Assembly: GCF_000712165.1 (NCBI RefSeq)
Contig: NZ_KL544010.1
Span: 62,001-126,000, forward strand
Reading direction: 5' to 3'
Length of the DNA stretch: 64,000 nucleotides
DNA from: Ureaplasma canigenitalium ATCC 51252
GTDB taxonomy: Bacteria > Bacillota_I > Bacilli_A > Mycoplasmatales > Mycoplasmoidaceae
Part shown: positions 3,793-62,885 of the stretch, in pieces
How positions within the stretch are numbered: position 1 is the stretch's first letter
How the letters are laid out: the number at the start of each line of letters is the position of its first letter
The notes under the pieces: model-generated
The model's database searches: none
Seen by the model: the letters and a program-made list of their open reading frames with translations, nothing else
What the model was told of the DNA's origin: nothing
Program-made: the position numbers and the translations under genes

Positions 3793-4311
3793 ATGACTAT
3801 GAAAAAACGAATTACATTAAAAAGAGTCCTATCAATAATTGGACTTTCTTCCCTGATCATTATTCCAGTTACCCTAGCAAGTTGTGTAAGAAAAAAAACA
3901 CAGATTGATGCAAGTAAATACACATTATTCAAGCATACTGAACAAAACGGTAAAATTATAACTACTTCTTATATTGTTCGTTTCTTTGTTAAAAAGAGCG
4001 ATGTATCTAGTTTAAATGACCTAAAAAAGCTAACATATCGTTTACAATATGATTCACACATTCCTATTCTGAATAATCAGGTTAGTCCTGTAAATACTGG
4101 TATGTTTGACGAATTTTACTTCTTTGATTTACACCTTCCACAACTGCATGTCAATGAGAAAATTCTCTTTGTTCCTTCAAACATCCTTACTTCATTTACC
4201 CTATTAATTACGAAACCAACAAAGGCTGAACCAAACCTTATCGACCAGACAGAAGTTGTTGAAAAAGCAACAGAATATATGCATCCCGAGTTGCTAAAAA
4301 AGAAGAGCTAG
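3793..4311 (+). CDS. Small lipoprotein, function unknown
   Basis: A 172-aa lipoprotein. Two in-frame ATGs exist, 3793 and 3799; the second gives MKKRITLK, typical of mycoplasma signal peptides. The signal ends in lipobox LASC, with the cysteine at residue 31 (or 29 from the second ATG). The mature part has no recognisable domain and no Trp codon. It is separated from the importer operon by a terminator and has its own -10 box, so it is probably expressed alone. It converges on the minus-strand operon that follows. Unrecognised beyond being a surface lipoprotein. Confidence 0.75.
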   Translation: MTMKKRITLKRVLSIIGLSSLIIIPVTLASCVRKKTQIDASKYTLFKHTEQNGKIITTSYIVRFFVKKSDVSSLNDLKKLTYRLQYDSHIPILNNQVSPVNTGMFDEFYFFDLHLPQLHVNEKILFVPSNILTSFTLLITKPTKAEPNLIDQTEVVEKATEYMHPELLKKKS

Positions 4312-4326
4312 AAGCCCTTCTTTTTG

Positions 4327-5124
4327 TTACTCAAGTTCGTTGTACATTTTACCTATGATGTTTATAATTTTCTTTTCTTCCTTAGTGTAGTTTTTCTGCT
4401 CAATATGCATACATTCATTAATGTATTTAATAATTGCATTTGTGACATTAGAAACATCATATGCTGTATCAAAAGGAAAAAAGTAAGTATAGTAGAGATA
4501 TAACAATTCTTTCGATAGATTAAGAAATGATGGATTTTGGTGAAAATGGTTATCAAGTTGTTCGTTAATTTGATAAATCTTGGGGTCGGTAATGATATTA
4601 ACATTATCAGTTCCACCACGATTATATTTAGCAATTTCAATCTTCATTGATTGTTCTAAATATTGGTTATAAAGTTGGAGATCAAAAACAAGGTTATTAG
4701 TCGCAATAAGTTCAACGACATGCATCTTATCCTGCATTCCTACTTTTTTTGATTTGAGAATCATATTAAGAAAAGCGAAGTCAACATCATTTAGTTCATT
4801 AATATATTTAACGATGAAAAGATCAAGCATTGAACCGTTAACTATGTGTTTATCCTGGTTAAATATCTTTATGTAATAATCTTCCTTTTTTAAATTAGAT
4901 TCATTTTCATCGATTGTATTAAGTTCAATTTCTTTAATTATTTCTTTGTCAAAATTTTTAAAATCTTCCAAAGTCGCTAAATCGATTAAAGGGTTTGTAA
5001 ATTCATTCTCAAGAAGGAGATGAGCAAGACCATAGTCCTTACGACTAAAGGCTTTTTCCGCTTCCTTTTTTACATCATTAAAATACTTCTTGATCTGTGT
5101 TTTGATTTTTTCTTCGTTTTTCAT
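4327..5124 (-). CDS. DUF3196-like conserved mycoplasma protein
   Basis: A 265-aa soluble, acidic, helix-rich protein without signal or membrane segment. The N-terminal pattern (MKNEEKIKTQIKKYF, then RKDYGLAHLLLENEFTNP) resembles the mollicute family DUF3196, whose role is unknown; this assignment is from memory of the family and is moderate. The gene overlaps the 3' end of the upstream DUF402 gene by 47 bp, which implies translational coupling. It ends only 15 bp from the convergent lipoprotein stop. Confidence 0.7.
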   Translation of the reverse strand: MKNEEKIKTQIKKYFNDVKKEAEKAFSRKDYGLAHLLLENEFTNPLIDLATLEDFKNFDKEIIKEIELNTIDENESNLKKEDYYIKIFNQDKHIVNGSMLDLFIVKYINELNDVDFAFLNMILKSKKVGMQDKMHVVELIATNNLVFDLQLYNQYLEQSMKIEIAKYNRGGTDNVNIITDPKIYQINEQLDNHFHQNPSFLNLSKELLYLYYTYFFPFDTAYDVSNVTNAIIKYINECMHIEQKNYTKEEKKIINIIGKMYNELE

Positions 5125-40038: not shown

Positions 40039-40217
40039 TGATTCTTACCTTATTATATATTTAACCTTATTAGTAAATTATAAAGTTTATTTTTCAATAA
40101 TGCTATTTAATGTGCAATTAATATTTTTTATTTTTGAATATGAAAGTTAATCCAAGGTATGGTGGTTTTTTGTTGTATGATTTAAGGTAATAATTACTAG
40201 TAATTTTTAGGATGAAT
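40039..40217. promoter_or_regulatory. Shared divergent promoter region of channel operon and helicase
   Basis: A 179-bp AT-rich stretch between two divergent genes with no frame of its own. It holds several TATA-like boxes on both strands (for example TAATAAT near 40190 on plus), but no single promoter can be chosen with confidence. Confidence 0.4.
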
Positions 40218-43200
40218 ATGAAAAAAGCAATCAAGCAAAAACTAATGAACCTAGTTAGTTTAAATCCGAATGATTCCGTGATTTTAACTAGATTGAGTCA
40301 AACTAAACACATCGATTTATTTAAGTATGTTGACAAGCAAGACTTACTTGATTTTGTTTATAACGAAACCGGGATTCTTGAACTTAGTACAAATCAGGAT
40401 GTCAACCTTTTTGAAGAAGAATTAAAGAAAGCTGACGACTCTTATCAATTTATTAATGTATGTACATCCTATGGGATTAATTTAAATGAATTTCGTATTA
40501 ATCTGCTTAATAAAAACTTTAAGGATAACAAAAAGAAGGTCATCCAGTATGCGATTGAGCAACTTCTTTTGTTTCGGAAGAAATTCATTGCCATTAATCG
40601 TCTTGCAAAGACATATTATGATGATACAACTGTCTGACCTCTTTATCTTGCCTTTAATTTTATTAAAGGAAAAGTACTTGCAAATGAAGCTTTTAAATCA
40701 CCCTTAACACTTTTTAAAGTTGAAATTCGGGAAGAGGCTAACCGTCTTTATCTTGCGAAGATTCAAGATGAATCAGTTGTTAATGAAAAACTGCAAATTT
40801 TTCTTAAGAAAATGTATCAGGAAATCAAAATTGATGCAACCGAACTTCTTTCAACTAGTGATATTAATAAAGTGATTAATAATATTGAAAACACTGTCGG
40901 ATATGAAATCGCACTACCAACTGATGAACTTGTTCCTTTTAACAACGAGAGTGAACAAGACATCCTAAATCGCTATACTAATTTTGAAATCGAACCTTCT
41001 TCTATCCTTGGTGTTTTTGAACCGGATGGTGGAGCCTTAAAAGAGGATCTTCATAAGATTATTGAACAAGATATTGATCCGTTTGAAACAGAATCAAAAA
41101 ACGGAATTAATAAACCCGTTTCCTTTTATGAAGACAAGGTTATTAAAGAACAAATGGTGATTGAAATCGGTCACCCTTTGAACATCTATCAAAAATATGC
41201 AGTAGCAAGTTCTCTTAATCAGAATACTTTAATTTACGGTCCTCCAGGTACTGGGAAAAGTGAAGTGATTGCTAACATTATTTTTAATACCTTATTAAAG
41301 TCAAAAACTTGTTTGCTTGTTTCGGAGAAAAGAGCAGCGCTTGATGTTCTTACTGAACGAATTGGTTCATTAAGTCAATTTGCTCTTTATGTTTATGACA
41401 CATCAAATAAGGAAAATTTCTACAATAAAATCGCGAACCTGAATGACCTTCTTGGGACACAATGATATAGAGAAACAATTAAGGGAGGAAGCAAGAAAAA
41501 TGAACTTGAGACAATCAAGTTTACCCCTGAAGAATCAATGTATCTAAAAAACTATAGTGACTGGAATAACGAACTTGTCGAACTGGTTGAAAAACATTGA
41601 AAAATTGAAGGTTACCAAGACGGGATTTATAAGATGGATTATGCCTTATATAATCGTGTAAAAACTAGTCTAGGAGAGCAAATTATTAACGAATGGTTAA
41701 CCCCTAAGCAATTTTTTGAAGGTCAGGATAAGCACTCAACTCTATTTGAAGAAATTACTACTATTTTTAATGAATATACCTTATTAAAAATCGAAGATTT
41801 ATTTCAAGCTTATATCAACTATACAACCTTTATTCGCAAGTTCAAACTAAATGATACATATAGTAATGCTGAAATTCTAAAACACCTTAGAGTAATTACA
41901 AATAAAATCAATGTTCATAACGATATTGTTACTAGATTTTTAATGAACGAAAAAGAAGTGACAAGAGCAATTAATAACTACAATGAATTTCTGCTTGTTA
42001 ACAACCTAGGTGAAAGTGAAACTTTTAATAAGAAAACACTTAAGGAAAAGAAGATTTTTATTGAGAAAATTGGTAATTACTTGAAATTTCGTAAGGAAGT
42101 GATTGAAAAAGACTTTACTCTTTCGAGTAAAACACCTGAGGAATTGATTGAAATTTCTTTGATGTGTGAAATCTTTTTCAACAAGCACCGAAAACTACTA
42201 GTTAAAAATGAATGATACGAATTTATTCGTCGTAATAAGGAAAAGATTATCGCTTTCCTTCCAATATATGATGTGCAGAACACCGAAAACAAGCAAATTC
42301 TATTTGCAGAATTTATCTTGAAACGAAACATCATTACGGCTCACGATCCATCAGATGAATGCACACTTTCATTAAAAGAAATTCGTCAAGCAAATAAAGA
42401 GGCAACTGAAATTGTTGAGCTTTTCCGTGACTATATCGAAAACATTAACTACCTTTCAAAACCGAGAATGGATGAACTATTCCTTTACAAGGAATTTTTA
42501 GACCAAGATATTAATTTCCTTTCTAAGTTGTATACTCTAGAAAATATTTTTACACCCAATATGCAGGAAATCATTCGTGAATGGTCGTGACTTTCTCTTC
42601 CTTACTTACGAAAACTCTATCTTGAACCATTAATCCTATTTGATCTTGAAAAAGTATTACCAATTATGAGTCAAGTTTCAACTTTCATTAATAATGAACA
42701 ATTTAAACAATTAAAGATGATTGTCCTTTGGGAAAGCATCATTCAAGCGGTACCTACTTTTAATGAAACAAAAGGAAGATTGCTACAAGACATTGTTAGT
42801 CAACTTCGCAAGGAATCGATGAGAAGTGCATCGGTTGTAGGAGAAATTACCTTCCGTCGTTACATTAACAATTTAAGATCATATTTGACTAAATTGCCAC
42901 AAGCGGATAAAGAAGAAATTACGAACGCCCTTCGTATTGCTTCGTCAAAAACATGACCTAGTGTTAGTCGGTATGTCAGCAAATACTATAATGCATTAAA
43001 GAAATTATTTCCAATTTGGGTAGCAAGACCAGATAATGTTGCTTCTCTTATTCCACTTAAGGAAAATGAGTTTGATTACGGAATTTTTGATGAGGCTTCA
43101 CAGATGACAATCGAACGAAGCTACCCTGTTGTCTATCGATGCAACATCAAAGTTGTTTCTGGTGATGATAAACAGTTAAAACCAACATCATTCTTTGTTA

Positions 43201-44339
43201 ATAAACTTGATGAAGCTGATTATGAACTTGATGACTTTAATAAGGTTGATAGTTTACTTGAAAGAGCGAAAACTAGTTGGTGAAATGAGTTTCATCTAAG
43301 AAATCACTATCGTTCAAACACGAAGGAACTAATTGAATTTTCGAATAAATATATTTATGACAATAAACTTGAATTAGCAACTCGTCAAGGATGCTTTGAT
43401 AAAGGAATTGAAGTGATTAATGTAAATGGGATTTGAGATAAGGGAAATCCAATTGAAGCTGAAACAACAGTCGCTACTATTATTGACCATTGAAAGTATT
43501 ACGACAAAATTCTTGTTGTAACTTTTAATGCAGTTCAAGCTACCCTGGTTGAAAACTTATTGCTTGAGCAATTGCATATGTATGAAAAAGGACTTGTCGA
43601 AAAGATTGACCGTAATGAAATTATCATTACCAATCTTGAAAATGTACAAGGGAATGAAGGAGATCTTGTAATTCTTTCTGTCGCTTATGGACCAAATCCA
43701 ACCGGAGTTATACGAAATAATTTTGGTCCATTAAATGCGAAAGGTGGTGCGAACCGTCTTAATGTTGCCATCACACGTGCTCGTGCGAAATTAATTGTTA
43801 TTAAATCGCTTTATGGCCATCAAATTCAAGTTAGCAACCATAATAATACGAATGCTATTACTTTTAAGAAATTTATTGAATACATTGATGAAATTAATGA
43901 ATCATCAAGTCTTTCTGAGACTTTAAAAGGGTTTGATGAACAAACTCAACTTGAATTTGATAATGACCTAGTTAAAGAAATTTATAGCGAATTAACTAAG
44001 AAACTTTCAAATAAATACCAAGTATTCCCAAATTGAAATATTGGTACAAAGAAGATTGACCTTGCCATCCTTAAAAAGGATACAAAAGAAGTTGTGAAAA
44101 CAATTCTACTTGAAACATGAAAAGCAAATGATAGTATTAAGGTAATGTATGAGGACATTGATCGTCAATACTTCCTTGAAGATCGGGGATATTCAACCTA
44201 CCGGATTAAAGAATATGAATGATACATCGATAAACATAAGATTATCGCGAGAATTAACGATTCTTTAACGAATGCTAATAAGAAGGACAAAATCGACTAT
44301 GTCCTTTGACAAAAAACTCAAGACTCATTAAATAACTAA
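40218..44339 (+). CDS. Giant SF1 (Upf1-type) helicase with degenerate nuclease-like C-terminus
   Basis: A 1373-aa protein, intact with TGA as Trp (about fifteen such codons). Helicase motifs: Walker A YGPPGTGKSEV (about residue 345), DEASQ, GDDKQLKPTSF, NHYRSN, VQGNEGDLVIL and LNVAITRARAKL. This is the Upf1/DUF4011 type of superfamily 1, long known next to or within defence loci. The C-terminal 110 residues follow the vsr-like nuclease pattern (KIDLAIL, LLETW, then YFLEDRGYSTYRI) but with unusual catalytic spacing. The ATG at 40218 fits the AGGATGAAT ribosome site; 40212 is the alternative. It is divergent from the channel operon. Confidence 0.88.
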
Positions 44340-44418: not shown

Positions 44419-45207
44419 TTATTTTGTTTTTTCTTCCACCATTAGTTTAGAACGATAGTTGAAAAAACGATGATTATAGATTTTTTTTTCCTTTTCTTTG
44501 TCTTTTAATTTTCACTCTTTTCTTTTCTTAATAGCATAATTTATGATTTGATAAATAATGAAGAATAGACATAGCGAAATAAATAATACTCCAATAAAAA
44601 TAGAAACATTTAGGAAAAATTCAGTTGGTAGAATCTTAATAATTTCATCAACATTACCATTAAAATCATAATTATCTTTTCCAGGAAAAAAGATGGTATG
44701 AAATACTTCAAAAGCTCGGTCAAAGTTAATGGAAACAAGAATCCCGATAATGATTATGATAAGAAAAAGAATAATACTCGCAATAAAACCAATTTTTATG
44801 ATGTCAACCTGATACTTCTTTAATTTAATGGTAAGAATCAAACTAAAAGAAAGAACACTTGAAATTCCTAACGATGTAAATGAAGCGGTAAATAAGTTTT
44901 TAACATCAACAAAATGCTCCATTCCCGGAATTGAATATTTTAACTGTCCCATCTTAAATGAACCACCGAGTGTTAAATAATCAAGTAGTTCGTCATATGC
45001 TCTTTTTAACTCACCATAATCCAGTTTACCTGCCTTAAAAGTTAGACTATTAATATCAAGATTATTAAGATGATAATAATAAAAAGGACGGATTAAAATT
45101 GGTAATGAGATGCTAAAACTGATAATGAATAACATTATGCTAAGAGTTAGAAAAAAAGCGATTGCTTTATCTCTCGGATTAGTTTTATTTTGTTTCTTCT
45201 CTTTCAT
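44419..45207 (-). CDS. TIGR01906/DUF1461-family integral membrane protein
   Basis: A 262-aa protein with four hydrophobic segments. It matches the TIGR01906 (DUF1461) pattern: RPFYYYHLN after the first segment, YDELLDYLT, HFVDVKNLF, then FEVFHTIFFPGKD and IIKILPTEFF before the last segment. A TGA near 44510 is Trp, adding a basic C-terminal tail. The family's function is not known. Its start overlaps the restriction-enzyme gene upstream by 23 bp, so it may be transcribed with the R-M genes even though it looks like a chromosomal gene. Confidence 0.82.
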
Positions 45208-45994
45208 TTGCTTTATTTTCTTCTTTTATTTTAAAGGAGAAACCTTCATATGTCTCAAAAGCGAGCTTATATAAAGCGACAAGTGTCACATTATCTATAT
45301 TTTTTAGTTCATTGATGACAGTATCTTGCTTTGCTAATAAGTTTTGGTTTTGAAGAATAATTTTTTCGATAGTGTTAGGTAATTGCATACAAATAATTTT
45401 GAATGCATCTTTTATTCCAGTTACCAGTTCAAAAAATTTATCAATAGAAATCCGTCTTAGATTAGGATTAGGAGTTTGTTTAACTCCGTCAATTGAGACG
45501 ATTCAAGGTATATTTTGAGATCTTTTTGCAATTACTTCAACAAGAGAACAAATACTTGTGTTTTTATCTACTGCATTAAGAAGATGGCTTTGCATTTTTA
45601 TATATGTTTTAGCTGATGAAGAACTATTCATTGTATTGTGCTTATTTTTCATCTCTATATAGTATGTAAGATTGTCATTCTTAAAAATGATGTCTCATCC
45701 TTTTTTTGGTACAGTGCAATTTTTAATGTACTTAAAGAGATTTTGGTGAAAATAACCTATTACATTATTATTACTTTTATCTCTTTGTCTATGGATTTCA
45801 AGTTTGATGATTTCATCATAACTTTTATTAAAAATAGTTTTATCAAAGAGCAGTTTAATAGGATCAATTAGTTGAGAATTAAATCTTTTTAAGTTAATAC
45901 ATTTTAGCGACTGACTATATTGAGATATCGTGGATTTAACATGTGCTTCGAAGTCTTCTTGTTTTATGAATGGAATATTATATTCTATTATCAT
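45185..45994 (-). CDS. Type II restriction endonuclease, Eco47II/Sau96I-like
   Basis: A 269-aa enzyme, joined across TGA-Trp codons. The core is characteristic of the Eco47II family: EIHRQRDKSNNNVIGYFHQN, NCTVPKKGWDIIF, YYIEMKNKHNTMNSSS and VEVIAKRSQNIPW. Catalytic Asp and Glu-x-Lys lie in GWDIIF...IEMK, a PD-(D/E)XK site. Known members cut GGNCC; the same site is expected here but is inferred. The C-terminal 60 residues are helical and extra to the core. The start overlaps the methyltransferase end by 17 bp. Trp encoded by TGA shows the gene is adapted to the mollicute code. Confidence 0.9.
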
Positions 45995-47006
45995 TTTTTA
46001 AATTCTCCAGATACTGAATAATTTTTAAACCTATTTCCTTAGCAAGATTAACTGGTACGGCATTACCGATTTGTTTATAAATCGATCCTATTGTCCCAGT
46101 AAAGATTCATTCATCGGGAAATGACTGAATACGGGCATTTTCCCTTGTTGTAAAAGGTCTTGTTTCAAGCGGATGACATCGGTCTGTTTGCTTCATTCCA
46201 GGACTTGTAAGTACTGTTAATGATGGTTCGTTCATACTAAGACGTCTAAGAATACCAGTGCGACCACCTTGCATATCTCAACAGCTTTTCATGTATTCTT
46301 TAGCAATATCCATAGGGATATCCCTTCAGTACCCACCTTGCGGTACTAATTTAAATATCTCTTCTTTATATTTTGAATATTTAGCCCCTAGACTTTCTGG
46401 AACATTAGAGAGGATATCTTTTAATACCGGTTTATACTTTAATTTTTCAGGAAAAATGAATTCATTGATGTAAAGATCATTTCTAATACCAACAATAATT
46501 AAACGTTCACGTTTTTGAGCAACACCGTAGTCTCATGCATTTAATATCTGGTATTTAATTTTGTATCCGCATTCTTTGAATATACTAAGAATAATTTTTA
46601 AAGTTTTACCACCATTATGAGATAAAAGACCTTTAACATTCTCAAATAACATCATTTTAGGTTGTAGTTTTTTTAAAAAAATAGCATAGTGGTAAAAAAG
46701 AGTACCACGAGCATCTTCGAGACCAAGACGTTTACCTGCATAGCTAAAACTTTGGCAAGGAGCACCACCTGAAAGCAAATCTAATTCACCTTTTGCAATT
46801 TTGAATTTTTGTTCCAAGTCTTCCTTTGAAATATTTTCTATGTTTTCACATAAAATATTCCAATTTTTTCGATTAACTCGGATTGTGTTAGCTGCATTTT
46901 TATCAATCTCAACAAGACCGATATGGTCAAATCCAGCCTGTTCAAGTCCAAGAGCAAGACCACCAGCTCCTGCAAAAAGTTCAATGCTTTTAAACTTATG
47001 ACTCAT
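45978..47006 (-). CDS. DNA (cytosine-5) methyltransferase of the Eco47II-like system
   Basis: A 342-aa m5C methyltransferase. Motifs: I ELFAGAGGLALGLEQAG (residues 9-25), IV GGAPCQSFSYAGK, VI FENVKGLL, VIII AQKRERLIIVG, then a target-recognition region and motif IX-X KQIGNAVPVNLAKEI. Trp codons include TGA. It protects the chromosome against the overlapping restriction enzyme. The start follows AAAGGAA. The M gene is transcribed first, usual for safe establishment of a system. Confidence 0.95.
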
Positions 47007-47513: not shown

Positions 47514-47776
47514 ATTTTTATAACCTTACATCATTCTATGTAAAATGCTCTTTTTGAGCAAAATACAATTTAAAAGATAAGTTACTTACTCTTTTTTTTT
47601 TTTTTGACTTAAAAGCAGAAAACAAACAAAATAAAAATAATAAACGGAACATTTGAAATTAATGTTTTATTGAGTCGATGTAATAATGACCTAGATTCTA
47701 AAAAAGGTGTTTTTTACAATTTATAAAAATAAAGATTAATGTAAATTGTGTTAAACATTTAGCAGTAAAAAACTAA
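47514..47776. other. Gene-free AT-rich stretch with a T14 homopolymer
   Basis: No credible frame. It contains a small hairpin (TGCTC / GAGCA near 47547-47561), a run of 14 T at 47592-47605 and an imperfect inverted repeat (ACAATTTA / TAAATTGT, about 47717-47750). It separates the chromosome from the imported R-M island that begins near 47777. Confidence 0.6.
47592..47605. repeat. T14 mononucleotide tract
   Basis: Fourteen consecutive T on plus (A on minus), upstream of the small membrane-protein gene on the minus strand. Tracts of this kind in mycoplasma promoters can vary in length and switch expression; here the effect is untested. Confidence 0.8.
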
Positions 47777-48118
47777 ATTATTAAAAAAGTCGCTCCAGGA
47801 GTAGCAACATCGCCACAACAAGTAGATATTTACTTTAACTTTATAGGCAATTATAGACCACCACAAGAAGAACTAAGAGAGGAAGAAAAACTAAGACTAG
47901 CAGAAGAAGAGAGAAAAAGAGAGGAACGAAGAATAAAAATACACAATAATTATTTAAAAAGAAAAGCCAATGGTAAACAAAAATAATATGAAGAAAGATA
48001 CAAGGTAAAAAGAGAACAATTAAAACAAGAGAAATTAAAAACACTAAAGAAAAGTGGAATAAAGTTATCAGAACTAAAAGAAAAGGAGAAAAAACAATAT
48101 GAAATGGCAACAGTATAA
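47777..48118 (+). pseudogene. C-terminal remnant of a recombinase-like protein
   Basis: A single frame without its start, broken by a TAA at 47984-47986 and continuing to the TAA at 48116-48118. The first part reads QVDIYFNFIGNYRPP, which resembles the extreme C-terminus of large serine recombinases carrying DUF4368 in Firmicutes. The rest is Lys/Glu-rich. Homology-like sequence starts almost exactly at 47789, after an upstream stop at 47774. It looks like the truncated edge of a mobile element that brought the next genes. The identification is tentative because little sequence remains. Confidence 0.5.
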
Positions 48119-48281
48119 AGAAACATTACAAGAATTAGAAAAGCAAGATTATGAAAACTATGTAAAGGCAATAGTAAGTATAGAAAAAGGAATTGATGAT
48201 GAAAAAGTACTAGATATGATATACACAAAATTTTTGAATAGTCCTTGTAGCTTATTAAATGATATATTTGATGAATTATAA
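48099..48281 (+). CDS. Small hypothetical protein of the imported island
   Basis: A 60-aa acidic protein (starts MKWQQYKETLQELEK), starting inside the recombinase remnant in another frame, behind an AAGGAG site about 14 bases upstream. Its Trp is TGG and codon choice (AGA, ATA, GTA) differs from the flanking genes. No known domain. Probably an accessory gene of the parent mobile element. Confidence 0.6.
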   Translation: MKWQQYKETLQELEKQDYENYVKAIVSIEKGIDDEKVLDMIYTKFLNSPCSLLNDIFDEL

Positions 48282-48295
48282 GAAGATAACGAAAC

Positions 48296-48318
48296 TTGAG
48301 GAAACTCAATTTTTTTGT
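48296..48318 (+). terminator. Terminator before the R-M regulator
   Basis: TTGAG-GAAA-CTCAA stem-loop followed by T7. Confidence 0.7.
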
Positions 48319-48354
48319 TTTAATAGGTTAAGTTAAAAGTAGAAAGAGGAAGGT

Positions 48355-48561
48355 ATGAACATATCATATGAACCATTATGGAATCTTTTAAAAACAAGAA
48401 AAATGAAGAAAAAAGATTTACTAGAAAAAGCAAATTTAACAACTAATTGTATTGCGAATATGGGTAAGAATGAATATATATCTTTAAAGAATATTACGAA
48501 AATTTGTGAATCATTGAATTGTAATATTGAAGAAATTATAGAGATAATAAATGAGAATTAA
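48355..48561 (+). CDS. XRE-family HTH regulator of the R-M system
   Basis: A 68-aa helix-turn-helix protein of the Cro/C1 type (KMKKKDLLEKANL, then TNCIANMGKNEYISLKNI). Proteins of this kind commonly precede methyltransferase genes in Firmicutes and act as controller proteins. It follows AGAGGAAGG and lies 11 bp before the restriction gene. Trp is TGG. Confidence 0.85.
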   Translation: MNISYEPLWNLLKTRKMKKKDLLEKANLTTNCIANMGKNEYISLKNITKICESLNCNIEEIIEIINEN

Positions 48562-48572
48562 AGTATGAATAT

Positions 48573-49364
48573 TTGGACAAAAAAAGTATAGATTTGGCAA
48601 ATCAAAGAAATTATTTGGATTTACTTTTTAGGATATATCCTATGTCTGTCAACTTAAGGAGAGAACTAAAAGAAAAAGATATAAGAGATATTAAACATTA
48701 TTTTGAAAATAGAGATTCAAAAAATTTATTAAATGTTTTATTGACACAAGAAATTTTTCCAATTAAAGATTCTTATGTAGCATATTTAAAGAGAGATAAA
48801 AATGCTATAGATAGAAATCCAAATACTGTAAATAGAATAACAGGAATATTATATGAATTAGGGCTTGATGAAATTTTTGATAAAACAACTGAGCCAAAAG
48901 AAACAAATAGACAAATAGGTCCAATGTTTAAAAATTGGATAGATACGGGTGCATTAGGTTGTAAAGTAACAACTTCTACAGAAGAGTTTGTCAGCAGTAC
49001 AGAGAATATAGTTTTCAATGGTTCTGATGCAAGTATGAAAAATTTTGCTAATGAATTTTTAGGATATGATAGAAATAAAGGTTTAGATTTTATGGCTAAA
49101 TTCAACAATACTTATATCTTAGGGGAAGCTAAATTTTTGACAGATTTTGGTGGACACCAAAATGCACAATTTGCTGATGCAGTTGCTACAATGAAAGAAC
49201 CATTAAGAGATACTGAACATAATGTTAAAGTGATTTCAATTTTAGATGGAGTATTGTATATAAAAACAAAAAATAAAATGTATAGTAGTATCTGCAATGA
49301 TTTTTCAAATGATGAAGTAATAGTATCTGCTGTATTGCTAAGAGATTACTTATATTCAATTTAG
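48573..49364 (+). CDS. Predicted type II restriction endonuclease (imported system)
   Basis: A 263-aa protein with a PD-(D/E)XK-like site: GLDFMAKF (Asp) and LGEAKFLTDFGGHQ (Glu-x-Lys), with a following Gln/Asp-containing helix, typical of restriction enzymes. It lies between an HTH regulator and a DNA methyltransferase, which supports the role. The recognition site is unknown. The start shown is TTG at 48573; no ATG in frame lies nearby (the next is 48639) and no ribosome site is seen, so the N-terminus is uncertain. Its only Trp codon is TGG. Possibly related to Tsp45I-type enzymes, a guess. Confidence 0.75.
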   Translation: MDKKSIDLANQRNYLDLLFRIYPMSVNLRRELKEKDIRDIKHYFENRDSKNLLNVLLTQEIFPIKDSYVAYLKRDKNAIDRNPNTVNRITGILYELGLDEIFDKTTEPKETNRQIGPMFKNWIDTGALGCKVTTSTEEFVSSTENIVFNGSDASMKNFANEFLGYDRNKGLDFMAKFNNTYILGEAKFLTDFGGHQNAQFADAVATMKEPLRDTEHNVKVISILDGVLYIKTKNKMYSSICNDFSNDEVIVSAVLLRDYLYSI

Positions 49365-49376
49365 CGAGGAAATAAT

Positions 49377-50480
49377 ATGTTTTTAGATTATAAGGATAAA
49401 AAGTCCTTAGAGGAAATTGATAAAATTATTGAGTTTAAAAAATTAGAGTTAAAAAGTATTTCTAAAGGAGAAGAAAAAGGATTATATATTAGTGGAGATA
49501 ACTTTGACTCTATGATTATGTTATTAAACGACTTTGAAAATAAAATAGACTTGGTATATATCGATCCACCTTTTAACACTAATTCTAATTTTTACTATAA
49601 TGAAGATAAGGTATCAACTATTAGTTCATCTAAAAATGATAGTTTAGCATACAGTGATAAAATGTCATTAAGTGATTATTTAGAATTTATAAGAGAAAGA
49701 TTAATTTTAATAAAAAGATTACTTAGTGATAGAGGTACATTATATTTTCATATTGATTGTAAATTAGGGCATTATATAAAACTAATACTTGATGAAATAT
49801 TTGGAATGGAAAATTTTGTAAATGATATTACTAGAGTAAAATCAAACCCTAAAAACTTTAAGCGAAGAGCTTTTGGAAATGAGAAAGATGTTATTTATAT
49901 CTATTCAAAGAAATCACAAAACAACATATTCAACAATATAACTATTCCTTTAAGTGATGAAGAAATATTAAAAAAATTTCCAAAGATTGATGAAAATGGA
50001 AGAAGATATAACACTGTACCTTGTCATGCTCCGGGAGAAACAAAAAACGGAGAAACCGGTGGCGTTTGGAAAGGGATGTTAGCTCCAAAAGGGAGACATT
50101 GGAGGTGTAGTCCTAAAGAACTTGATAAGTTAGACGATGAAGGTTTAATAGAGTGGTCTAAAAATGGTGTTCCAAGAATAAAAAAGTTCTCTGATGAGCA
50201 TAAAGGAAAAAAAATGCAAGATATATGGATGAATTTTAAAGACCCACAGAATCCGATATATCCTACCGAGAAAAATTTAGATATGTTATCAATGATAGTA
50301 GAGCAATCATCTAATGAAAATTCAATTATTATGGATTGTTTTTGTGGTTCATCTAGTTTTTTATTGGCTGGAATAAATAAAAAGAGGTATGTTATAGGCA
50401 TTGATAAATCGGATATATCAAAAGAAGTTTTGATGAAAAAAAGAACAGATATTACAAATTTAAATATAGTTGACTTATAA
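49377..50480 (+). CDS. DNA adenine/cytosine-N methyltransferase (imported system)
   Basis: A 367-aa amino-methyltransferase of beta order: motif IV IDPPFNTNSNFYYNED (about residues 61-76) before motif I MDCFCGSSSFLLAG near the C-terminus. The segment WKGMLAPKGRHWRC with GEKNG-type residues is the target-recognition area. It probably makes N6-methyladenine, though N4-methylcytosine cannot be excluded. The start follows GCGAGGAAATA, 12 bp after the restriction gene. Trp codons are all TGG, unlike the neighbouring native genes. Confidence 0.88.
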   Translation: MFLDYKDKKSLEEIDKIIEFKKLELKSISKGEEKGLYISGDNFDSMIMLLNDFENKIDLVYIDPPFNTNSNFYYNEDKVSTISSSKNDSLAYSDKMSLSDYLEFIRERLILIKRLLSDRGTLYFHIDCKLGHYIKLILDEIFGMENFVNDITRVKSNPKNFKRRAFGNEKDVIYIYSKKSQNNIFNNITIPLSDEEILKKFPKIDENGRRYNTVPCHAPGETKNGETGGVWKGMLAPKGRHWRCSPKELDKLDDEGLIEWSKNGVPRIKKFSDEHKGKKMQDIWMNFKDPQNPIYPTEKNLDMLSMIVEQSSNENSIIMDCFCGSSSFLLAGINKKRYVIGIDKSDISKEVLMKKRTDITNLNIVDL

Positions 50481-50486
50481 CTTTTG

Positions 50487-50517
50487 AGATAACCTTTGTT
50501 ATCTTAATTATTTTTTA
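50487..50517 (+). terminator. Terminator of the imported R-M system
   Basis: Stem AGATAAC / GTTATCT followed by a T-rich run. Confidence 0.75.
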
Positions 50518-50588: not shown

Positions 50589-50613
50589 AAAAAACCGCTC
50601 CTGGAGCGGTTAA
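50589..50613. terminator. Hairpin after mtnN, beside the island edge
   Basis: Near-palindromic stem ACCGCTCC / GGAGCGGT preceded by A8; on the minus strand it has a T run and ends mtnN. It contains CTCCTGGAGCG, the inverse of CGCTCCAGGAG at 47791-47801. Confidence 0.75.
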
Positions 50614-50627
50614 TATAAAATAAGGTT

Positions 50628-51353
50628 TTAATTTAATTTATTTTTGTATACGGAGATGGCCTCAATAATGCTAAATAAATGGTTCTCAAATCATTTATTA
50701 ATAGCATCCATATTTTGGTTAAACTGATCAGAACTTTTCTCATCGTTATAAATTGTGTCAGACACCATTTTTAGACTAACAAAACCGGTGTTCATTTTGT
50801 GACAAACCTGAGCAATGCTAGCTAGTTCCATATCGATTAAATCAATATTTTTAGTACAGGGAAGATTACTAATATTATCCTTGTGGATAAATTTGTCAAT
50901 AGTTCCAACATTCCCATATTTTAAAATAACACCAGAGTTTTTTAAGATTGGGTCAACGAAAGAAAAGACATCTTTTTGACATCAAAAAATAGTTGGTTGA
51001 CGTGGTACCTGGTTGAGTTCATAACCGAATGCAGAGACATCAACATCGAGATATTTGGTTTGTTCAATTAAGTACAGGGTAAGTGGTTGATCATCCTTTT
51101 TGATTGAACATGACGAACCAACATTTAGAATGATGAAAGGTTTAAAAGTATTAATCATAATGGAAGTTGCATGGGCTGCATTGACCTTACCAACATCACT
51201 AAAACAAAGTACAACTTTTTGCTCCCTATCGTAATACTTTACCTTAAAAAGATAAAAGTCAATCCCACCCTCTTTATAAAATTTTTTGGACTTTATTTTA
51301 TTTTCGAAAAAATTTTTAATTTCACTTTTTAGTGCGACAACCATTCCAATCAT
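50628..51353 (-). CDS. mtnN: 5'-methylthioadenosine/S-adenosylhomocysteine nucleosidase
   Basis: A 241-aa enzyme that cleaves adenine from methylthioadenosine and S-adenosylhomocysteine, the by-products of SAM use. Motifs: MIGMVVALKSEI at the N-terminus, LNVGSSCSI, the IDMELASIAQVC segment and VSDTIYND with the catalytic Asp. TGA-Trp at 50979. It starts 1 bp after the stop of the nadD-yqeK fusion, in one operon. Confidence 0.93.
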
Positions 51354-58616: not shown

Positions 58617-60221
58617 ATGAAAAAGAAACAGCAAAAAATCTTATTTACATCATTCGGTCTTCTACTTGCTGGAAGTGCAATTGCTGGACTTGCTGTTGGT
58701 TGTAAGAAAAATGGCAATAGACAACAAGAGATAAATAAAAGGGACAATAAACAAGAGATAAATGAAAAAGACAAAAAACACAAAGAAATAGAGAAAACTA
58801 TAAATAAATTTAATTCAACTAGTTTAAAAACTAGTTATCTTTCTAAACTTAAAGGTAATAATGATTTAAGTAAATTTGAAAACGAAGTTAATAAACTTAA
58901 AGACTTAGATGTTAGTGTTTTTAATCTGATAAACGGCTTAAAAGATGAAAACAAAAAGAAAGAATATCTTGAAAAACTTAACAAAGTTAAATCTAAAGAT
59001 GACCTAAATACTTTAAAGAAGATTATTGAAGATGATAAATCTCCTGGTAATGGTGAGCATGTAGATAATACGGGTAATGATCAAGGGGATAAACATGGTC
59101 AAACTAACACACCTAATGAACCTAAAAACCCTGAAGCACCTAGTCAACCTGACAATCAAGGTAAAGAGAACCAATCAAAAAAAGAAGAAGACGCTAGTAA
59201 AGGTGGCGAAATAAGTAATCCTAAAAAACCTGGTAAGGATGAAGATTCTAAAAAACCTGGTAACGATGAACAATCTAAAAATAACACTAATCAAGAAAAA
59301 CCGAACGATAATTCATCTAATAATATGCCTGATAACAATGGTAATCATGCTGGAAACAACCAAGTTCCAAATCCAAATGACAACCAAGTTCCAAAGACAC
59401 CAGATGAATTACCACCAAGCAATCCAAATGAAAATAGTAATGAAATTAAAAAAATAAAAGATGAAATTAAAAAGGAAATAGAAAGCTTACCTCCTGGCGG
59501 ACCTACACCTGGTTTCCTTGAAGAATTAAAAAAAGCTAATGATAAAAAGAGCTTAGAAGCTTTAAAGAAAAAAGTCTTAGATGAAGTGGATAACAATAAT
59601 AAGTCGAAAAAACTTGTTAGTAAAAAAACTAAATTGCATGAAAAAATTAGAAAGTCAAAACTTTCAGATGAACTTCAAAATGAGTTAAATGGTAAAGTCA
59701 AAAATAGTGACATTTCAAATATAGATAAAGTAGAAGAAGAAATTGACAAAGCAATTAGTGATTTAGAAAAAGTTCTTCCAAAGAAAGAAGAAGCCAAGGA
59801 ATTACTTAAGAAGCTATCAGAGGATAATAATAGAAAAGACATGCTTGAAGCCCGTATTGATATGTCAAATAAACTTGAAGAAGTTGAAAAGATAATGAAT
59901 GAAATAAAGAGCCTTCTAAAAGACACTCGTGATATAACTAAAAGAGAACATATCGATAAGATTAACGGTCACGAGAGATATCAAGAATTTATTAATAAAG
60001 TTGATGACGAATCAAAGACTGAAGACCAGATCAAAAAGCTCGGTGACGAAGCAGAACTAATTTTTAACAGTGAGAAAATGAAGGTACAAGAAGTTCTAAA
60101 TCAAATTAAAGATGAAGGTATTAGAAATAATCTTAATGAAGAATTAAACAGACAAGTCAATATCACTGGACTCAGAGACATAAAAAAGAAGGCTCAAGAC
60201 CAACTAAAAAGAAAAAAATAA
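58617..60221 (+). CDS. Modular helical-repeat lipoprotein
   Basis: A 534-aa predicted surface lipoprotein with lipobox LAVGC (Cys29). After the signal come two helical modules (about residues 60-95 and 100-138), a Pro/Asn/Lys/Gly-rich low-complexity linker (about 140-275) and about five further modules up to the C-terminus. Each module has the pattern hydrophobic helix, K/N-rich turn, L-x-x-L helix, about 40 residues long, reminiscent of the albumin-binding GA module of surface proteins in mycoplasmas. It has no Trp at all. The start follows AAGGAAT. Host-protein binding is inferred. Confidence 0.75.
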   Translation: MKKKQQKILFTSFGLLLAGSAIAGLAVGCKKNGNRQQEINKRDNKQEINEKDKKHKEIEKTINKFNSTSLKTSYLSKLKGNNDLSKFENEVNKLKDLDVSVFNLINGLKDENKKKEYLEKLNKVKSKDDLNTLKKIIEDDKSPGNGEHVDNTGNDQGDKHGQTNTPNEPKNPEAPSQPDNQGKENQSKKEEDASKGGEISNPKKPGKDEDSKKPGNDEQSKNNTNQEKPNDNSSNNMPDNNGNHAGNNQVPNPNDNQVPKTPDELPPSNPNENSNEIKKIKDEIKKEIESLPPGGPTPGFLEELKKANDKKSLEALKKKVLDEVDNNNKSKKLVSKKTKLHEKIRKSKLSDELQNELNGKVKNSDISNIDKVEEEIDKAISDLEKVLPKKEEAKELLKKLSEDNNRKDMLEARIDMSNKLEEVEKIMNEIKSLLKDTRDITKREHIDKINGHERYQEFINKVDDESKTEDQIKKLGDEAELIFNSEKMKVQEVLNQIKDEGIRNNLNEELNRQVNITGLRDIKKKAQDQLKRKK

Positions 60222-60644: not shown

Positions 60645-62417
60645 GTGAAGTTTAAGATATTAGATTTATTTTGTGGTGCTGGTGGTTTTTCAGCAGGCTT
60701 GGATAAAAATAAAAATTTTGAAACCTTAATTGGTTTGGATTTTGATGAACAAGCGATCAAAACCTTTGGACTTAATTTTCCAACGGCTGAAGCTATTTGT
60801 GGTGATATTACAAATAAAGAAATCAAGGAAAAAATTATTAGTTTATCAGTTTCTAAAGGTATTAATATGATTGTTGGCGGCCCACCATGCCAAGGTTTTA
60901 GTTTAAAAGGAAAACTTCTTGGACTAGATGATCCTAGAAATTTTCTTTTTTTAGAATATATTGAAATGTTAAAAGCAATACAGCCCGAAGTATTTGTTAT
61001 TGAAAATGTGAGAAATATATTAAGTTCTAATAACGGTTTTTTTCTTCAACAAATTCTTGAAAGAACAAGACAATTAGGCTACATTGTAAATTACGGTTTC
61101 TTAAACGCCAGGGATTTTGGTGTTCCCCAAAATCGAGAAAGAGCAATTATCATTGGTTCTAAAACTAAAAGTATAGGTTTACCTACTAAGTGTGTGAAAC
61201 AATTTACAACAGTTTGAGATGCAATATCTGATCTTTCTTTTTTAAGTTCAGGAGAAGGTGAGTTTGAAGTTGACTATCCATCAGCACCTTTAAGTGACTA
61301 TCAAAAGAAAATGAGGTCGAATAAACTTTATAACCATATTGCGACCAAGCATAGTGAATTAGCATTAAAAAAATTAATGTTAATCCCTCCTGAAGGTGAT
61401 AAATCTTTTTTACCAAAAGAATTACACGGAAAACAAAAGTTTTCTTCAACTTGGTCACGTCTTGAATGAAATAATATTAGTCCTACTATTGATACTAGAT
61501 TTGACACACCATCAAACGGAAAAAATTCACATCCTTATTTAAATCGCTCCATTACACCGCGTGAAGCTGCTCGTTTACAGAGTTTTCCTGACAGTTTTAT
61601 TTTTTATGGAACTAAAACTGCTATTTGTAAACAGATTGGGAACGCAGTACCACCTTTAATTGGGAAAGCAATAGCAAATAAAATCGATGAAAATTACAAT
61701 GATAATTTTGTCTGAAATAGTGATTATCAACTTTTTAACAAAGATGCTTTTAATTTTGTAAATGAATTAATCAATCAAAAAATTCAAGTAGATCACATTA
61801 TTACGGACCCACCATATGTAATTTCTAAAAAAAATAATTTTAACACACTAAAAAAACCAAGAAAAGGTGTTTATTTTGGTCAATGAGATGAGAATTTTAA
61901 CTTATTAGATTGGATAAAAGATTATTCAACAATTCTAAAACCAGGCGGTTCTTTTATTGTTTTTTGTTCTTATCGTTTCATTAGCTATATTTGTGATGAA
62001 TTGAGCAAAAATAATATAGAAATAAAAGATGTTCTAATTTGAAAAAAGAAAAATCCGATGCCACGTAATACAACTCGTAGATATGTTCAAGATATGGAAT
62101 TTGCGATATGAGCGGTTAAACCTGGAAAGAAATGAATCTTTAATAAAGATAAAAGTAAACCTTATATGCGTTCAGTTTTTGAAACACCAACTGTTCAAGG
62201 TAATGAACGTACTATACACCCCACTCAAAAGAGTCTTAGTCTTATGAAATCGATAATTGAAACACATACTAACAAAAACGATTTAATCCTTGATCCGTTC
62301 ATGGGGAGCGGATCAACAGGGGTTGCCGCTCTTTTGCTAGATAGAAAATTTATCGGTATAGAAAAAGATAATAAATTTTTTAAAATAGCCGTTGACAGAT
62401 GTGAAGGGAGAAAATAA
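60645..62417 (+). CDS. Fused m5C / amino DNA methyltransferase
   Basis: A 590-aa two-enzyme chain. Residues 1-345: cytosine-5 methyltransferase with LDLFCGAGGFSAGL (I), GGPPCQGFSLKG (IV), VIENVRNIL (VI), QNRERAIIIG (VIII) and KQIGNAVPPLIG (X). Residues 380-590: beta-class amino-methyltransferase with IITDPPYVISKK (about 387) and DPFMGSGSTGVAALLL (about 552), preceded by HPTQKSLSLM. Both domains keep all catalytic motifs. Trp codons are a mix of TGA and TGG. Start is GTG at 60645, consistent with the usual MKFKILDLF opening. The HNH gene follows with no gap. Two methylations, probably one per strand of an asymmetric site. Confidence 0.93.
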
Positions 62418-62885
62418 ATGAGTGTTTTATTAAGTGAACTACTTAAGAATAAAATTAACCCTTTAATTCACGGGGTACTTTTTAGTTTAATTGTAGACTC
62501 AACCAAAATTAAACGAATATCTATTTTGGTTGAAATTGTGCATCAATTAAAACCTAATTTATGTTCAGGTTGTAATGATCAATATAACTTGGAAGAAAGG
62601 ACTTTTATCAGTCGTAAAACTAATGATTATTATCTTGAAGTTCATCACAATATTTCATTAGCTAATGGGAATGAATTAGATGATGTAAATAATATGGTTA
62701 AACTTTGTCCAGTTTGTCATGCTTGTTTAAAAAGAAACAGAGGCCTTAAAGAAGTTCAGAAGAATATTATTAAAAGTATTTTAAGAAATAATATCGATAC
62801 CCTTCAGTATAGTGCTCGTTTTTTCGATCTTCCATTAAGCAATACTGAACAAATAGTTGACGAAATTTATAATCATTTAGCATAA
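62418..62885 (+). CDS. HNH restriction endonuclease paired with the fused methyltransferase
   Basis: A 155-aa nuclease with a zinc-stabilised HNH fold: CSGC (Cys49, Cys52), EVHHN (His76-His77), Asn91/92 and CPVCH (Cys97, Cys100, His101). Gene start is the base after the methyltransferase stop. Position and size fit the endonuclease of a type II/IIS system. Architecture resembles HphI, which from memory has separate m5C and m6A methyltransferases and a small nuclease; the site here is unknown. Confidence 0.85.
   Translation: MSVLLSELLKNKINPLIHGVLFSLIVDSTKIKRISILVEIVHQLKPNLCSGCNDQYNLEERTFISRKTNDYYLEVHHNISLANGNELDDVNNMVKLCPVCHACLKRNRGLKEVQKNIIKSILRNNIDTLQYSARFFDLPLSNTEQIVDEIYNHLA

Follow-up and report, generated by a model that had tools for sequence, protein, structure and literature searches.

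The window, the whole stretch of 64,000 nucleotides that was analysed, covers positions 62001–126000 of a contig in an 835-kb, nine-contig draft genome with estimated completeness of 96% and estimated contamination of 0.25%. It contains a compact island in which remnants of mobile-element genes are followed by an HTH regulator gene and a type II restriction–modification (R-M) pair, comprising an endonuclease (REase) and a methyltransferase (MTase). The features are as follows:

47798–48118, forward strand: remnant of the C-terminus of a large serine recombinase of the Resolvase/Recombinase/DUF4368 type, its frame interrupted by TAA at 47984–47986
48099–48281, forward strand: N-terminal fragment (60 codons) of an SSB-like protein of ~220 aa from conjugative elements, 42% identical to residues 1–58 of an Anaerococcus prevotii pAPRE01 protein
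48355–48561, forward strand: 68-aa Cro/C1-type HTH regulator (HTH_26; PF13443, E = 5e-15), candidate controller of the R-M genes
48565–49364, forward strand: Tsp45I-family type II REase (PF06300, E = 1e-96, profile positions 5–260 of 260)
48579–48585, forward strand: A7 run in the REase start, one base short for the frame as judged from DNA alignment and relatives' starts; it also forms a perfect slip site, A AAA AAA, on which a −1 shift would restore that frame
49377–50480, forward strand: N6/N4 DNA methyltransferase with beta-type motif order (PF01555, E = 4e-38)
50484–50507, forward strand: terminator-like hairpin after the MTase gene (10-bp stem, −8.7 kcal/mol, z −4.1)

The original prediction had the island open with a remnant resembling a recombinase C-terminus. 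This remnant is real (65–67% identity over ~88–97 aa), but recognisable homology begins near 47798 rather than at 47777, and the tail extends beyond the TAA at 47984, to 48118. It corresponds to the last ~100 residues of homologues with a full length of ~620 aa, and the alignment runs through the TAA to query residue 93–102; the DUF4368 end was detected with an E-value of 5e-4, which lies under the Pfam gathering score. Within the order around Parvimonas, 37 of the 199 genomes have a match to it, the proteins matched being ~620 aa long (66–68% over 62 aa), and recombinases of two same-class non-mollicute genomes (families f17 and f22) are 66% identical to the tail. No relatives of the tail were found in the sampled mollicutes, nor was any other recombinase of its family found elsewhere in the host genome.

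The "small protein" of the original prediction is an ORF with a single Trp codon, TGG, as claimed, but it covers only the N-terminal quarter of the full protein (~220 aa); a relative encoded on a Streptococcus suis plasmid carries the annotation single-stranded DNA-binding protein. Of the same 199 genomes in the order around Parvimonas, 62 have the SSB-like protein, the best matches being mostly open frames of ~223 aa. In about ten genomes of this order (for example, G588, G553, G618, G612, G599, G616, G582, G585, G610 and G506), recombinase and SSB-like protein are encoded on one contig and one strand, the latter 32–53 kb downstream, which is consistent with their belonging to one integrative element. 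The direct junction of the two remnants in the window is consistent with a loss of the middle part of such an element. Around the island, no convincing target-site duplications or att-like direct repeats were found.

The left flank (47697–47810) shares an inverted 30-bp match of 83% and the sequence CGCTCCAGGAG with positions 50590–50775 (minus strand, MTAN 3′ end and terminator). The idea that the left junction arose from an inverted copy of this MTAN end and terminator was rejected, since the shuffle test was not significant (21 of 500 shuffles equalled the match, and 154 of 500 did so with a looser gap setting). A phage route was likewise rejected: no viral contig carried relatives of the REase or of the small protein, and phage MTases are only ~30% identical.

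The HTH gene lies directly upstream of the REase gene, in the position expected of a controller (C) protein, and an HTH gene occupies the same position immediately upstream of the related R-M cassette of Parvimonas parva, described below. No such HTH was found beside the eight other relatives searched. In the search for a C-box operator, the DNA upstream of the HTH gene proved not to be alignable between the window and Parvimonas. A hairpin, TTGAG-GAAA-CTCAA, is located upstream of the HTH gene at about 48296–48309 and may serve as a terminator or an operator.

The REase contains an invariant K-G-x-D segment followed by GEAKF in seven of the eight aligned rows and by AEAKF in the remaining one; the conserved acid and the E-A-K segment (D...EAKF) have a putative catalytic role. 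REases of the relatives start with MN[IY]WT or MTHWT. The corresponding start in the window reads ATG AAT ATT TGG ACA AAA AAA GTA TAG. The A7 run at 48579–48585 is one base too short, and the frame opened by the ATG at 48565 therefore meets a TAG after eight codons. The ORF as listed begins at TTG 48573, in frame but without the conserved start, and the gene thus has no intact ATG start. Owing to this one-base loss, the REase is probably silent, weakly expressed, or expressed only via slippage on the A run or from the TTG codon. It is also possible that the missing base is a homopolymer assembly error.

Programmed −1 frameshifting assisted by a downstream structure was rejected: no stable RNA structure was found downstream of the slip site, where folding is weaker than that of the average shuffle (z = +0.93), which leaves unassisted slippage or phase variation alone. 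A functional role of the A7 run as an on/off or slippage gate, with polymerase or ribosome slippage or A7/A8 replication slippage restoring the MNIWTKKS start in a small number of cells, appears unlikely to us. Repeat-based phase variation has been documented for M. hominis methyltransferases (PMC10305163); despite this precedent, we rate the possibility low, as seven A make only a short run. If the gate were real, an imported R-M system would persist in a mollicute in a phase-variable state, mostly methylating and rarely restricting.

The MTase frame is intact. In its translation, motif IV (DPPF) precedes motif I (FCGSSS), which is the order of the beta class, and the enzyme is most likely functional. 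By analogy with its family, it probably methylates GTSAC, and the REase would cut unmodified GTSAC. The hairpin that follows the gene resembles the Parvimonas counterpart AGAGATAGCAGAAATGTTATCTCTTTTTT in both place and sequence, and it moves the end of the island to about 50507.

The best MTase relative (74% identity) was found in Parvimonas parva by a scan of 85,000 species genomes that relied on exact peptide patterns and on the MTase alone and may therefore have missed a closer donor. The P. parva cassette is a syntenic HTH–REase–MTase array with 75% DNA identity over 2,071 aligned bases (2.07 kb), its REase being 77% and its HTH 53% identical to those of the window. In both the REase and the MTase trees, the window groups with Parvimonas with 99–100% bootstrap support. 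The next relatives are all from standard-code bacteria: one genome in the order-level set around Parvimonas, a conjugative plasmid of Campylobacter, Bacteroidota, Peptococcaceae, and a genome of the same class as the host (G318). Such a patchy spread is typical of R-M systems. The closest relatives are therefore standard-code genes, with Parvimonas first, and not mollicute genes carrying TGA at the same positions. Neither the nine congeneric genomes nor any other sampled mollicute genome contained a full-length REase relative; mollicute matches were confined to a weak nuclease core (26–35% over 67–106 aa). Within the congeneric set, the REase is absent except for one weak partial match, these being distant species (32–47% identity in the adjacent MTAN gene) in which the exact empty site is not alignable. 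One of them, G009, has a second, broken MTAN copy (4200–4671 of its locus) upstream of a def-parE-parC-yqeH-nadD-MTAN cluster.

Codon usage sets the island apart from its host. The background consists of stretches of the 835-kb genome totalling 264 kb, in which 181 ORFs reach 120 aa or more; these ORFs contain 444 TGA and 148 TGG codons for Trp, a TGA share of 75% (444/592). The four island ORFs have seven Trp codons (one each in the small ORF, HTH and REase, four in the MTase), all of them TGG and with no in-frame TGA (Fisher p = 7e-5 against the genome background). Among 62 ORFs with at least four Trp, the MTase is the only one with TGG throughout, and the island is likewise the only all-TGG run among 165 runs of consecutive genes totalling at least five Trp. 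At the four Trp positions of the MTase, standard-code relatives mostly have Trp as well; the simplest reading is that TGG is ancestral there and that none has turned into TGA. AGA accounts for 23 of 28 Arg codons (82%) versus 801 of 2467 (32%) in the background (p = 1e-7), and ATA for 38 of 72 Ile codons (53%) versus 891 of 6866 (13%; p = 1e-15). On a host-minus-Parvimonas codon usage score, island genes fall below every other ORF scored. The original prediction of exclusive TGG in the island, mostly TGA in native neighbours and a preference for AGA and ATA thus agrees with the counts, and the codon usage of the island is still undrifted toward that of the host.

The host encodes tRNA-Trp(CCA) as well as a UCA-anticodon tRNA, which a bacterial-code scan labelled SeC, and because of the former the TGG codons of the island are decoded normally. 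All island ORFs stop at TAA or TAG and end identically under translation tables 4 and 11. The claim that these genes work in both codes accordingly holds for the reading frames and the host tRNAs, but not for the REase, whose frame is broken at its start.

A second type II R-M pair, of the Eco47II family, lies in the same locus at 45185–47006 and contains six TGA and one TGG codon. Tsp45I-type enzymes, which we take to act at GTSAC, and Eco47II, which we take to act at GGNCC, differ in the state of their sites in the same 264 kb: GTSAC is undepleted (100 observed versus 102 expected), while GGNCC is reduced to 0.55× (87 versus 158), making it the most depleted of 16 xyNy′x′ site types. The GGNCC ratio is 1.09 in the congeneric genome G009 and 0.85, a slight depletion, in G002. 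By two independent measures, Trp codons and site depletion, the Eco47II system looks long resident and the Tsp45I-type island new. The contrast between the two sites lends further support to a recent arrival, although undepleted GTSAC is equally expected if the REase has been inactive.

These data bear on whether the system could instead be native to mollicutes, or long resident in them, with TGG, AGA and ATA retained by chance or through local mutational bias. High ATA or AGA is found in some other host genes too, and core residues of the REase resemble the short nuclease stretches of mollicutes described above. Against this stand the three codon biases at genome scale, TGA at six of seven Trp codons in the adjacent Eco47II genes, closest full-length relatives outside the mollicutes, and undepleted GTSAC; we consider a native origin very improbable.

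Several other genes around the island deserve mention. At 60645–62885, a single 590-aa ORF fuses a C5-cytosine and an N6/N4 methyltransferase and is followed by an HNH nuclease; it uses TGA and brings the number of R-M systems within 17 kb to three. A 534-aa ORF at 58617–60221 contains no Trp, has no Pfam match and a weak DndD-like match, and is the third most AGA-biased gene (75%; ATA 41%), possibly another import. At 40212–44339, a 1375-aa DUF4011/AAA helicase with an MTES_1575 nuclease domain resembles the candidate defence protein PDC-S37. Overall, the 40–63 kb stretch looks like a defence island.

Since the host is known here from its assembly alone, a nine-contig draft, a piece of Bacillota DNA joined into a mollicute contig by chimeric assembly or contamination should also be considered. 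The island, however, lies inside a 384-kb contig and is flanked on either side by genes that use TGA, the contamination estimate is low, and instead of being intact donor DNA the island shows decay of its own (an in-frame TAA, a truncated gene and the loss of one base), which renders an artefact hardly more probable than a native origin.

Atypical codons, the absence of TGA for Trp, distant standard-code relatives and mobile-element remnants are all present, as expected of genes of standard-code origin. We therefore regard it as highly probable, as the best explanation of the whole, that a mobile element from a standard-code Bacillota member left the HTH–R-M island in a mollicute reading UGA as Trp. 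Two points weaken this interpretation: the code argument taken by itself comprises seven Trp codons, and the HTH is less similar to its Parvimonas counterpart than are the REase and the MTase. Likewise, the recency of the import stands only in a relative sense, as the nearest cassette differs by 25% in DNA. Parvimonas is thus too distant to be the immediate donor, and neither donor nor date is fixed; the donor was an unsampled bacterium, probably of the Bacillota, that carried a relative of the Parvimonas cassette. Since matches to the recombinase tail occur in both Bacilli and Tissierellales (66%), it is the R-M cassette and the SSB-like fragment that point to the donor order.

In a variant compatible with this explanation, the import came through an intermediate, e.g., a standard-code relative of the same class. 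The same-class genome G318 has the R-M pair at 54–57% identity with a TGA-free REase frame, and the recombinase tail has its 66% matches in the same-class families f17 and f22, but Parvimonas is far closer for REase and MTase (74–77%) and shares the HTH with the window. We consider such a detour conceivable but rather doubtful.

For the import from standard-code Bacillota as such, we propose that an element from a low-GC member of this group (Parvimonas-like, most likely of the Tissierellales) entered the chromosome beside the MTAN-nadD-yqeH-parC cluster. The bulk of the element would then have been lost, leaving the serine recombinase tail, the start of the SSB-like gene and the HTH–R-M cassette. 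The island genes would have been readable at once in the new host because of their TGG-only Trp codons and TAA/TAG ends. Code compatibility is one-way in this respect: standard-code genes can be read immediately in a UGA=Trp host, whereas TGA-bearing genes such as the Eco47II pair cannot be read in a standard-code host.

Among known systems, the cassette of Parvimonas parva S3374 (L009:4877–7002) is alike in gene order, strand, spacing and the hairpin after the MTase gene, but the mobile-element genes flanking it differ from those of the window. The Parvimonas copy is itself damaged (L009:5089–6037), with the REase C-terminus and the MTase N-terminus frameshifted, whereas the window has a broken REase start and an intact MTase. 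Tsp45I-type R-M systems in general (PF06300; GTSAC) share the whole-length REase family match and the N6/N4 MTase partner; the window differs from them in the UGA=Trp mollicute host, the start-codon frameshift and the C-like HTH upstream, which was found at one of nine other loci searched.

Type II R-M genes of Mycoplasma hominis and M. mycoides with close Clostridium orthologues, as described in an earlier report (PMC2751442), likewise combine a mollicute type II R-M gene with highly related orthologues in standard-code Bacillota. They represent a different R-M gene, and no codon-level or site-depletion test of recency was seen in the passages of that report that were consulted. A composite tet(M) element derived from a Streptococcus transposon has also been described in M. 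hominis (PMC7466169). Mollicutes are thus already known to have taken up DNA from standard-code Bacillota, and the present island is a new instance, adding a Parvimonas cassette, mobile-element remnants, a site-depletion contrast and a start frameshift. A single locus here brings together TGG-only genes with undepleted sites and TGA-rich genes with depleted ones, and considering site depletion together with the identity of Trp codons could be of use in dating when mollicutes acquired their R-M systems.
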